Origin: Sulfurimonas sp. hsl 1-7
GTDB lineage: Bacteria; Campylobacterota; Campylobacteria; Campylobacterales; Sulfurimonadaceae
Length of the DNA: 64,000 nt
Assembly: GCF_030577135.1 (NCBI RefSeq)
Contig: NZ_JAUIRR010000001.1
Span: forward strand, 1-64,000
Direction of reading: 5' to 3'
Shown piece by piece: positions 47,393-50,259 of the stretch. Below the pieces are notes generated by a model, which was given only the letters and a program-made list of their open reading frames with translations, was not told where the DNA came from and ran no database searches. The translations under genes and the position numbers were made by a program. The number at the start of each line of letters is the position of its first letter. Position 1 is the first letter of the stretch.

Positions 47393-47501
47393 GGTGACAC
47401 CCCGTTCTCCACTTTTTACTTTTCCTCTCTTTTACAAACAAATCTTATTTAACAAACTATAATTAACATTAATGTAACAAATAACATATACAATAACAGC
47501 T

Positions 47502-47611
47502 TCAGGGTAAAAGGGATTACTTTTTTCTACTACGCCAAAAAAAGAAAGAAAAAAGTAGTTATACAGTACACGCAAACAAAAACAACTTCTTGCTACGACC
47601 TCCTTTTATCC
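47502..47611 (+). repeat. Structured element family 2, copy 1, in the leader of the bd-like oxidase operon
   Basis: An apparent RNA structure in the 242-base gap between mrp and the bd-like subunit gene. A closing stem pairs 47505-47514 with 47602-47611 (10 bp, one G-U). Inside it, a 13-bp stem pairs 47516-47528 with 47547-47559 (one G-U) around the loop actacgccaaaaaaagaa. After an 8-base linker comes ACACGCAAA (47568-47576) and later AACTTC. Copy 2 follows the second oxidase gene. The element ends 24 bases before the GTG start, with the ribosome site aaggag between. It could be a leader regulator, a processing signal or a mobile hairpin. The rest of the gap shows nothing I can name. Confidence 0.7.
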
Positions 47612-47634
47612 TAATTTTATATTAAGGAGCAGTT

Positions 47635-48972
47635 GTGGATACAATAGGACAATTTCCATTGTTTTATTTTCCGGAGTATGGAAGTGCTTGGATGATGGGT
47701 ATTACAGGTACTATACACATTTTAGCGTCACATACTTCTGTCGGTGCGGCAATGTTATTTGCCTTTTTAGCTTATAAAGGGTACAAGGAAAATACTACAG
47801 AGTATTTACCGTATATGAAAAAATACGGGATGTTTTTACTTATCTTCTCATATGTTATAGGTTCTATCACAGGGCCGGGGATTTGGTATACGGCAACAGC
47901 CGCGAGTCCAAGAGGAATTAGTGCACTTATACATAACTTCGTATGGGTATGGGCAACAGAATGGGTGTTTTTTGTTTATGAGGTTATAGGTGTTTTTGCC
48001 GTTGTATATTTTATTAATAAAGTAGATATACGTACACATCTAAAACTGACATATACATTTGCACTTGCTTCGGTTGGAACACTTGCCTTAATCATCGGTA
48101 TTATCAGTTTTATGATGTGGCCTGGTAATGAAGCATTTTACTTAAGCGGAAGTGCTAGTGACGGTTTCTTTGGAATAAATACATTCCCGCATATGTTTTT
48201 AAGAATCGGTTTTATGATTATGATGTCTGGTGTTATTGGTCTTGTGATTGCAAGTGCTATGAAAAAAGAGAACTTAGAACTTTCACGCGAGTTGACTAAA
48301 AAAATGGGCTATGTAAGTTTACTTGGTGGTTTTGTTACGATGTTCTTTTTTATGTGGTATATGGGAACTTTACCGGAAAATGCTCATGCAGTATTTAATG
48401 TTTCAAAAGAGAGTATTCTTCAAAGTAGAATTATACTTACAATAGTCTTTTCACTCTACTTTATACTGGCTATTGCCAAACCAAACTTTATCAATCCTAT
48501 TTTTGCTTCAACAATGATTGTAGTAATTTTAATCGCAGGACTTTGGCCAGGTGAGAAATTACGTGAATCAATGAGAAAACCTTACGTTGCAGGTCAATAT
48601 ATGTACTCAAACCAGATTGTAAGCCGTGATGTTCCAGGAAAAGGGATCAAAAGTGAGTTACCTGTTATTGCTGAAAAAGGATTATTACAAGTAAATCCTT
48701 TTATTCCTGATAACTTAAGAGTGATCACTGCTGAGAATAAACTTGAAGCCGGAAAACTTTTAGCAAAACTATCCTGCTCAAACTGTCATTCATTAGAAAA
48801 AACAGGGGTATATAGACCGTTAAAAGATAGATTAACCGGTATGGATAAAGATGGAATAAAATCTATCCTTTATGCAATAGGTGCAGGCGGAATCTCTTAT
48901 ATGCCGAAACTTCAATTGCCAGAACATGAATACGATGCGATTGCAGAGTATCTTGCATCACAACACTACTAA
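47635..48972 (+). CDS. Cytochrome bd-family-like membrane subunit with C-terminal c-type haem
   Basis: A 445-residue inner-membrane protein with about nine helices and no signal peptide. The first helices follow CydA: MGITGTIHILASHTSVGAAM with His28 and His33, WATEWVFFVYEVIGVF with Glu109, and NTFPHMFLRIG with His186. These stand where E. coli CydA has His19, Glu107 and His186. The Q-loop of quinol oxidases is absent. Instead the C-terminus carries a cytochrome c motif, CSNCH (381-385), with Met in YMPKLQLP as a possible sixth ligand. This fits bd-superfamily members with haem c. Oxygen reduction fed by a cytochrome or quinol is likely. It starts with GTG after aaggag. Confidence 0.74.
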   Translation: MDTIGQFPLFYFPEYGSAWMMGITGTIHILASHTSVGAAMLFAFLAYKGYKENTTEYLPYMKKYGMFLLIFSYVIGSITGPGIWYTATAASPRGISALIHNFVWVWATEWVFFVYEVIGVFAVVYFINKVDIRTHLKLTYTFALASVGTLALIIGIISFMMWPGNEAFYLSGSASDGFFGINTFPHMFLRIGFMIMMSGVIGLVIASAMKKENLELSRELTKKMGYVSLLGGFVTMFFFMWYMGTLPENAHAVFNVSKESILQSRIILTIVFSLYFILAIAKPNFINPIFASTMIVVILIAGLWPGEKLRESMRKPYVAGQYMYSNQIVSRDVPGKGIKSELPVIAEKGLLQVNPFIPDNLRVITAENKLEAGKLLAKLSCSNCHSLEKTGVYRPLKDRLTGMDKDGIKSILYAIGAGGISYMPKLQLPEHEYDAIAEYLASQHY

Positions 48973-48986
48973 GAAGGAGGATTTTT

Positions 48987-50180
48987 ATGGATGCATCAAC
49001 ATTATTAGCTCTTCGTGACCCTGCAGGGATCCCTTTTTATCCAGTAGTTTTTCAAGGGCTTTATATTTTAACTTGGGCTTTACATGCCGCATTTGTTTTT
49101 CTTTCACTCGGATCGATGGGATTATCGCTTTATGGAACAACGAGACAAACAAGTGATTCGAACTGGAAAATTTTAACTCCTCATTTATTACAAACAGGAA
49201 AGATTAGTGTCTCATTATTAATTGTACTAGGTGTAGCACCATTACTCTTTACTCAGGTTATTTATGATCCAAACTGGTATGTTGCAAATACATTGTCAGG
49301 TATGTGGGTTTTTACATTTATTTATGCTTTAATTGCAGGATACGTTATGTACTATTGGTATTATTATGCAAATCATGCAAAAGAGGGCAGTGGCAAGCTT
49401 ATCGGTATTATTTCGTTTGCTATTTTAGTTTTTGCCGGTATTTTAATGCATAACTTTGCCGTTACCTCAATTATGCCAAACGAGTGGATGGAAATGTACG
49501 CTCCAAATGGTGTTGTAGATACAAGTGGAACAACGCTAAATATAGACTTTATTAGACTAATATTTATGTTAAGTTTGTGTATCCCTGTAGTTGGCGTATT
49601 TTTACAAAACTATAGTAAGTTTATTAGTACAAGGGATGATTTTTCTAATGAGTTAAAAACATATACAGCACATCTAGGTACAAAAATTGGTTTATACGGT
49701 TTAGTACTCAGTGCAATACTTTTTGTTGCTTGGATGTTTCAAGTCGATTATTTAACAAATCCGGTTGTAATTGCTACAGTTTTGGGTGTAGTAGTATTAC
49801 TATTTATGATCGCTAACAATAAAAACAGCTATATTACTACAGGCGTATTAGTTATTGTTGCTATCTTAATATCCACTGTAAGAGAAGTGATTAGATATGA
49901 GATCATGGCAGAGCTGGGATACAATATTTACGATTACACTGTAAATCTTGAGATACCGTCTATTACAATGTTCTTGCTTACGTTCTTAATTATGGGTGGA
50001 GTGGGTGTTGCTTACATTTTAACTATGGCTTGGAAAGTTGGTAAAACACAAGGCGTTTTTGATGGGACAAAAGAAAAAACAGTAAATAAATTAGCTAACT
50101 ATACAATTAGTATTATGGTTGTTTGGATGGTGGTTTATTTTGGATGGGGTATGTTTACGCTTTTTAGCAATACATTATAA
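48987..50180 (+). CDS. Second bd-family-like membrane subunit
   Basis: A 397-residue protein of about nine to ten membrane helices, starting 14 bases after the haem-c subunit with aaggagg as ribosome site. YILTWALHAAFVFLSLGSMG (His33) resembles the first CydA helix with its haem-ligand His, suggesting a CydA-derived partner (the A' type of CydAA' oxidases) more than a classical CydB. Later helices hold GILMHNFAV and IREVIRYEI-like polar residues. It probably forms a heterodimer with the upstream protein. I infer a bd-type terminal oxidase complex, but the sequence is diverged. Confidence 0.66.
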   Translation: MDASTLLALRDPAGIPFYPVVFQGLYILTWALHAAFVFLSLGSMGLSLYGTTRQTSDSNWKILTPHLLQTGKISVSLLIVLGVAPLLFTQVIYDPNWYVANTLSGMWVFTFIYALIAGYVMYYWYYYANHAKEGSGKLIGIISFAILVFAGILMHNFAVTSIMPNEWMEMYAPNGVVDTSGTTLNIDFIRLIFMLSLCIPVVGVFLQNYSKFISTRDDFSNELKTYTAHLGTKIGLYGLVLSAILFVAWMFQVDYLTNPVVIATVLGVVVLLFMIANNKNSYITTGVLVIVAILISTVREVIRYEIMAELGYNIYDYTVNLEIPSITMFLLTFLIMGGVGVAYILTMAWKVGKTQGVFDGTKEKTVNKLANYTISIMVVWMVVYFGWGMFTLFSNTL

Positions 50181-50182
50181 GA

Positions 50183-50259
50183 TCAGGAGGGTTTGTACCT
50201 CTCTACTACGCCAATAGAAAGAGAGGTACAAACACACATTACACGCAAATGTAACTTCC
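50183..50259 (+). repeat. Structured element family 2, copy 2, after the bd-like oxidase genes
   Basis: It begins 2 bases after the stop of the second oxidase gene. A perfect 13-bp stem pairs 50192-50204 with 50220-50232 around the loop actacgccaatagaa. An 8-base linker is followed by ACACGCAAA (50241-50249), and GGAGG (50186-50190) can close on CTTCC (50255-50259). Loop, linker length and ACACGCAAA match copy 1 at 47502, but the stem arms are different in sequence. ACACGCAAA itself sits in a small TTACA/TGTAA hairpin here. Confidence 0.7.

Follow-up and report, generated by a model that had tools for sequence, protein, structure and literature searches.

The oxidase operon and its two structured elements

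The window, meaning the whole 64-kb stretch of DNA analyzed here, carries an oxidase operon that is accessory and rare in the genus (Table 1). Pfam returned no match to the membrane part of subunit I, and the C terminus gave a weak cytochrome c match. In Foldseek, the top nine matches were all bd oxidases (probability 0.89 to 1.00), at E values above 0.001, TM scores of about 0.3 to 0.5, and a mean pLDDT of 62.5. From this structural modeling, the oxidase looks like a relative of cytochrome bd, which would need no copper. A 52%-identical homologue is found near the methanobactin gene mbnF on the plasmid pMSC49c of the methanotroph Methylosinus, where a homologue of the bd-like oxidase operon (L216, 5001-11329) adjoins feoB, a sensor/response-regulator pair, and mbnF.

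Two copies of a structured element accompany the operon. Both have a 13-bp hairpin (P2) whose loop begins ACTACGCCAA and ends AGAA, an 8-nt linker, ACACGCAAA, and AACTTC; the loop spans 18 nt in copy 1 and 15 nt in copy 2. A preliminary description had reported two structured copies with the same loop and linker and different stems, and the sequence confirms this. Its account of the stems needs slight correction: the arms, said to share no sequence, are unlike except for three loop-proximal pairs (TCT/AGA) common to both copies, and the full pairing, 13 bp in each, includes one G-U in copy 1. It had not described the outer helix P1, the alternative pairing of the Shine-Dalgarno (SD) sequence, or the promoter box.

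What sets this element apart from chance? Judged by fold energy alone, copy 1 is unremarkable, little better than shuffled sequence (z of -1.2), and copy 2 is extreme (z of -7.6). A 13-bp stem with a loop of 12 to 25 nt occurs at 5 places in the window versus 1 to 7 in shuffled windows, and stem length by itself is not significant for this AT-rich DNA. The joint pattern CTACGCCAA..AGAA..ACACGCAAA is present twice in the window genome and absent from 227 other members of the family. The feature beyond chance is the unpaired frame common to both copies, not the stem. At other ACTACGCCAA and TACACGCAAA sites in the window genome, the element is not formed.

Downstream of copy 2 lie a second strong hairpin and then a convergent GGDEF gene; an open reading frame of about 22 codons on the same strand as the element overlaps that gene and was not taken as a gene. 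As for copy 2, it might influence where transcripts end, be left over from a downstream gene since lost, or be a functionless duplicate. That the two copies together bracket or define the operon finds no support: both are absent from the orthologous oxidase operons examined, the leader copies of other genomes precede a different gene, and no role can be assigned to copy 2.

Table 1. Features of the oxidase locus (positions in the window) and, in the last row, inverted loops in other genomes
Feature	Position	Strand	Remarks
Promoter-proximal box TTAACATTAATGTAACA (TTAACA-N5-KTAACA)	47463..47479	+	Only relaxed match in the 64-kb window
-10-like sequence TATACAAT	47487..47494	+	From sequence; predicted transcript start about 47500
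Copy 1 of the element	47504..47629	+	TCAGG-GTAAAA-GGG precedes the 5' arm of P2
P1 5' strand AGGGTAAAAGG, copy 1	47504..47514	+	11-bp outer helix with 47602-47612 in the minimum-energy fold
P2 hairpin, copy 1, 13-bp stem, loop ACTACGCCAAAAAAAGAA	47516..47559	+	5' arm 47516-47528, loop 47529-47546, 3' arm 47547-47559
Conserved junction, copy 1	47560..47576	+	8-nt linker TATACAGT, then ACACGCAAA (47568-47576), followed by AACTTC; homologues approximately CACAnnnTTACAC-CGYAAA
Switch strand	47600..47612	+	Anti-SD CTCCTT (47600-47605), overlapping P1 3' strand CCTTTTATCCT (47602-47612)
Shine-Dalgarno AAGGAG	47624..47629	+	From sequence
Oxidase subunit I	47635..48972	+	Cytochrome-bd-like membrane domain and C-terminal cytochrome c domain
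Oxidase subunit II	48987..50180	+	Conserved membrane partner, no Pfam family; adjoins subunit I in 4/4 orthologous loci
Copy 2 of the element	50183..50259	+	Starts 3 nt past the stop codon of the last oxidase gene with TCAGG-A-GGG; 91.8 bits with covariance model R1
P2 hairpin, copy 2, 13-bp stem, loop ACTACGCCAATAGAA	50192..50232	+	5' arm 50192-50204, loop 50205-50219, 3' arm 50220-50232
Junction, copy 2, CACACATT-ACACGCAAA and TGTAACTTCC	50233..50259	+	8-nt linker, ACACGCAAA (50241-50249), AACTTC
Short P1-like pairing, copy 2	50186..50190 with 50255..50259	+	GGAGG/CTTCC
Inverted P2 loops	L168 4326-4401, L172 8115-8190, L173		G579, G672, G475

A rare RNA family ahead of TonB receptor genes

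The first lead to further copies was a weak blastn match of copy 2 (E of 0.6) to the Sulfurovum mangrovi plasmid NZ_CP087125, where an element with the same loop and linker but another stem lies upstream of a TonB receptor gene. Covariance models built from two, three, and eight sequences were then run against overlapping draws that together covered more than 700 Campylobacterota genomes, a search that was not exhaustive and whose E values are rough. It brought to nine the copies beyond the window, all in Sulfurovum-type Campylobacterota, a designation inferred from the S. mangrovi record and the common receptor family. The genuine members are G510, G500, G667, G666 (two copies, the second with a drifted loop), G579, G672, and G475, plus the S. 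mangrovi plasmid. Every one lies in a leader directly upstream of a single family of TonB receptors. The preliminary description had proposed such a search, with many copies and covarying stems to count as support; the stems do covary, though the family is rarer than that, with eight genomes among the more than 700 scanned plus one plasmid record.

All other matches listed were rejected on reading, including those of models R2 and R3 in G114, G547, G600, G658, G676, G709, G638, G630, and G586. Within the family, model R1 gave six weak matches besides the two copies of the window genome, and these lack the motif. Viral contigs held 73 and 49 pattern matches, mostly in one coding family and none with the flanking stem and linker; a phage collection gave no match to the element, and the matches of copy 1 among plasmids were chance ones. 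A different palindrome, TACTTTTTCTTTTTTGTACTACGACAAAAGAGAAAGAAGTA, at G676 C5:47219-47288 (L159) is superficially like copy 1 and was taken as unrelated. Rfam 15 has no match at the element up to an E of 5, and near homologues gave sub-threshold matches only. That the element is no known riboswitch or ribozyme thus holds as far as Rfam 15 reaches, and the nine further copies and their covariation bear out the earlier proposal that the RNA is functional, its stem covarying and its unpaired bases fixed. The RNA family is real, cis-regulatory, and undescribed.

The RNA is not obligatory for the genes it precedes, as most receptor homologues and the orthologous oxidase operons do without it. Receptor homologues with E values of 1e-100 or lower occur in 25 genomes of that bacterial family, and the element in only seven. 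In genus g55, the homologues keep long leaders, some with a similar stem, and lack the loop motif. In the window genome itself, the promoter box of copy 1 also stands ahead of a receptor gene of this family (G000 C5:125449, L241), whose leader spans 49 nt and lacks the element. The element's receptor is closest, among solved structures, to PQQ transporters; no close relationship to a solved copper receptor was found, and NCBIfam scores were below cut-offs. Its gene neighbors encode Fer4_5 polyferredoxins, DsbD_2, and DUF4198-like proteins. In S. mangrovi, the receptor gene that follows the element is divided between two reading frames (L093 3058-4131 and 4173-5309). In G667 and G666, genes for an HgdB/HgdC-like dehydratase component and activator lie upstream of the receptor (L169 1810-3894 and L171 180-1406, oriented loci).

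Covarying helices and a predicted SD switch

In an alignment of eight copies, 93.1% of P2 cells are paired, with double changes at 9/13 pairs and none of 500 shuffles as good; the alignment was fitted to the P2 stem, which favors P2 somewhat, and the signal collapses when the partner strand is slid by 1 to 3 columns. When nine leaders, receptor and oxidase alike, were folded without constraints, P1 was part of the minimum-energy structure each time. Its strands are AGGGUAAAAGG/CCUUUUAUCCU in copy 1 and GCAAAAAGAGG/CCUCUUUUUGC and relatives elsewhere. Across ten leaders, 10/10 pairs are kept (100/100 cells), with double changes at 6/10 positions and none of 2,000 re-dealt strands equaling this; because the register of these strands was chosen by hand and by eye, P1 covariation is weighted below that of P2. 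A third, inner helix, P3, starting from CGYAAA, is predicted in most leaders, and a test of its covariation gave no support. A leader RNA should combine covarying helices with conserved unpaired bases, a combination seen for P2 and P1 and not for P3.

Where does P1 lie relative to the ribosome site? Its 3' strand ends just 5' of the SD and contains or overlaps the SD complement. In copy 1, the alternative pairing joins CUCCUU (47600-47605) to AAGGAG (47624-47629), and the RNAalifold consensus independently picks a CUCUUU/AAGGAG hairpin. With P1 allowed, mean predicted SD pairing is 0.01 to 0.14 in the S. mangrovi, G510, G579, G500, and G667 leaders and a substantial 0.70 in copy 1, a value that depends on the exact transcript start, starts having been placed from -10-like sequences. 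With the P1 5' strand blocked, it is predicted to rise to 0.98 in copy 1 and to 0.88 to 0.97 in four homologous leaders. The exception is G667, where little trapping is predicted (0.27). By prediction, then, blocking P1 traps the SD in five of the six leaders modeled and weakly in G667, so the closing helix and the expression platform exclude one another. Copy 1 is the leader of the oxidase operon, as proposed, with an anatomy that could control translation. From these folds, we infer a translational switch with the P1-P2 junction as its sensing part. P1 is the stronger of the competing helices, so the default state is probably open; a signal that inactivates would fit the anatomy as well as one that activates.

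The promoter box and its gene set

A box of two direct hexamer repeats precedes copy 1 and 22 TonB receptor genes, always at spacing N5 and at no other spacing from 2 to 6; the pattern was relaxed so as to include copy 1. It is also upstream of 2/3 orthologous oxidase operons, which lack the RNA. Genome-wide, sites outnumber those of reversed-pattern controls in four genomes (8 versus 1, 3 versus 1, 8 versus 0, and 10 versus 2). In two of the genomes, the window genome and G500, the box lies beside ccoN of the copper cbb3 oxidase. The set further includes NosZ (669 bits, cut-off 625), NosL, ExbB (above cut-off), SafE/DsbD_2-like proteins, the element's receptor family, and a partial receptor sequence whose best family, below cut-off, is TonB-copper. 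Judged by these sequences, the box probably marks a copper-economy regulon. Nine copies of the RNA lead one TonB receptor family and copy 1 leads the oxidase, and both share the box; the homologues therefore lead functionally related genes.

The architecture recalls the HP1043/HsrA box of Helicobacter pylori, TTTAAG-N5-TTTAAG (PMC5253667): both are promoter boxes of Campylobacterota in which a hexamer is directly repeated at an 11-bp interval. The hexamer here, in contrast, is TTAACA, and the gene set is copper related.

Inverted loops

Three genomes (G579, G672, and G475) have, between the P2 arms, the reverse complement of the G510 segment, inverted relative to all other copies as well. Loop orientation is therefore dispensable or switchable in these genomes. 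In a protein tree, the forward G510 is sister to the inverted G579 (100/98), an arrangement that would require two flips or more; a nucleotide tree does not resolve the grouping. The inverted loop is unchanged among three species with 87 to 92% receptor-gene identity, a constancy that is weak evidence of constraint. Two explanations offer themselves: replication accidents turn short palindromes around, with the leader tolerant of the change, or the switch is phase variable. Small hairpin-loop inversions are known from chloroplast DNA, where a loop between short inverted arms is likewise found in either orientation among related genomes; here, unlike there, the loop is a conserved motif in a bacterial leader.

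A leader RNA in copper limitation?

On balance, we lean toward reading the element as a switch-like family of cis-regulatory leader RNAs of Campylobacterota that acts in a copper-limitation regulon. P1 would close a junction holding the long P2 hairpin, with its conserved loop CUACGCCAAUAGAA, and then the conserved strand CACAnnnUUACAC-CGYAAA; the fixed unpaired bases are the likely recognition surface. Because the P1 3' strand contains or overlaps the anti-SD, P1 and SD sequestration would be mutually exclusive: with P1 formed the ribosome site would be free, and with P1 open it would be trapped. Translation of the controlled gene would therefore depend on a ligand or protein that stabilizes the P1-P2 junction or breaks it; that gene would be the copper-free bd-type oxidase in the window and the TonB receptor of a copper-type regulon in relatives. 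Copper limitation is the best single reading of the signal, given the company of genes under the box, the mbnF neighbor of the homologous oxidase, and the published link between bd oxidase and copper uptake. Bordetella can grow without copper by means of a bd oxidase, and its copper TonB receptor is under post-transcriptional copper control (PMC12914433); in Mycobacterium tuberculosis, bd oxidase backs up copper shortage (PMC12140626).

Might the signal instead be oxygen, redox state, iron, or nickel, with the RNA in a wider respiratory or metal regulon? The box also stands ahead of genes of unclear role (lipoproteins, a cytochrome cd1-like protein), its architecture resembles that of the essential HP1043 regulator, and DUF4198-like proteins adjoin the receptors. 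This reading is nevertheless somewhat unlikely, as NosZ, NosL, ccoN, and a TonB-copper-like receptor in one box set favor copper, and a cell short of copper would be expected to respond with TonB-ExbB uptake and a copper-free oxidase. Fixed loops displayed on long stems of free sequence are typical of protein or kissing-loop sites, and a protein or small RNA bound in trans to the exposed P2 loop could control the SD with no small-molecule ligand. Copper control of the Bordetella receptor, moreover, uses a translated leader rather than a riboswitch (PMC12914433). The strand after the hairpin (CACAnnnTTACAC, GYAAA) is conserved too, however, and we consider such trans binding unlikely. Improbable, in turn, is a more ambitious version of the copper reading, in which this would be the first class of RNA to sense copper status directly, as Cu(I) or a copper complex, and to place both copper uptake and a copper-free oxidase under its control, with the DNA-flippable loop making it a phase-variable switch.

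Could the hairpins merely stabilize mRNA ends or terminate transcription? The position of copy 2, just past the last stop codon and followed by a second hairpin before the convergent gene, would suit that role, but the other ten copies are 5' leaders, P2 has no U-run after it, and stability needs neither fixed loop nor linker, so the proposal is quite improbable. The least probable reading, and a very doubtful one, is that of mobile or self-inserting palindromic DNA (REP-like or integron-like) whose hairpins have no RNA role. Two copies around an accessory operon rare in the genus, orthologous operons without them, and loops flipped between their arms in three genomes would fit. Against this, the 2.28-Mb genome holds only two copies, and every other copy is found in the leader of one gene family, at a constant position and with P1 and SD pairing kept; the many dispersed copies or cassette array of integron attC or REP-type elements were not found.

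How does the favored leader RNA compare with known systems? Like translational riboswitches that exchange P1 for anti-SD pairing, it is a 5' leader with a P1-closed junction, conserved unpaired bases, and a P1 3' strand that competes with pairing to the ribosome site; unlike them, it has no Rfam family match, a very narrow distribution, and only a putative ligand. By analogy, it may resemble the CruR leader of CrtA/BfrG in Bordetella (PMC12914433), where control of a copper-tied TonB receptor is also post-transcriptional and bd oxidase supports growth at low copper. CruR, however, is a translated upstream reading frame, whereas the conserved leader here is an RNA with covarying helices, and among solved structures its receptor is nearest to PQQ transporters.

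We know of no copper-sensing RNA, and a small literature search returned none. Campylobacterota are poor in known riboswitches; in a transcriptome study of Campylobacter jejuni, the TPP riboswitch was the sole riboswitch among leaders (PMC3847290). The inverted loops offer a natural experiment on which bases of the RNA matter. Tied to copper economy by its promoter box and gene content, the covarying leader RNA offers a concrete, testable candidate case in which RNA may govern metal uptake and the choice of oxidase in bacteria that cycle sulfur and nitrogen.
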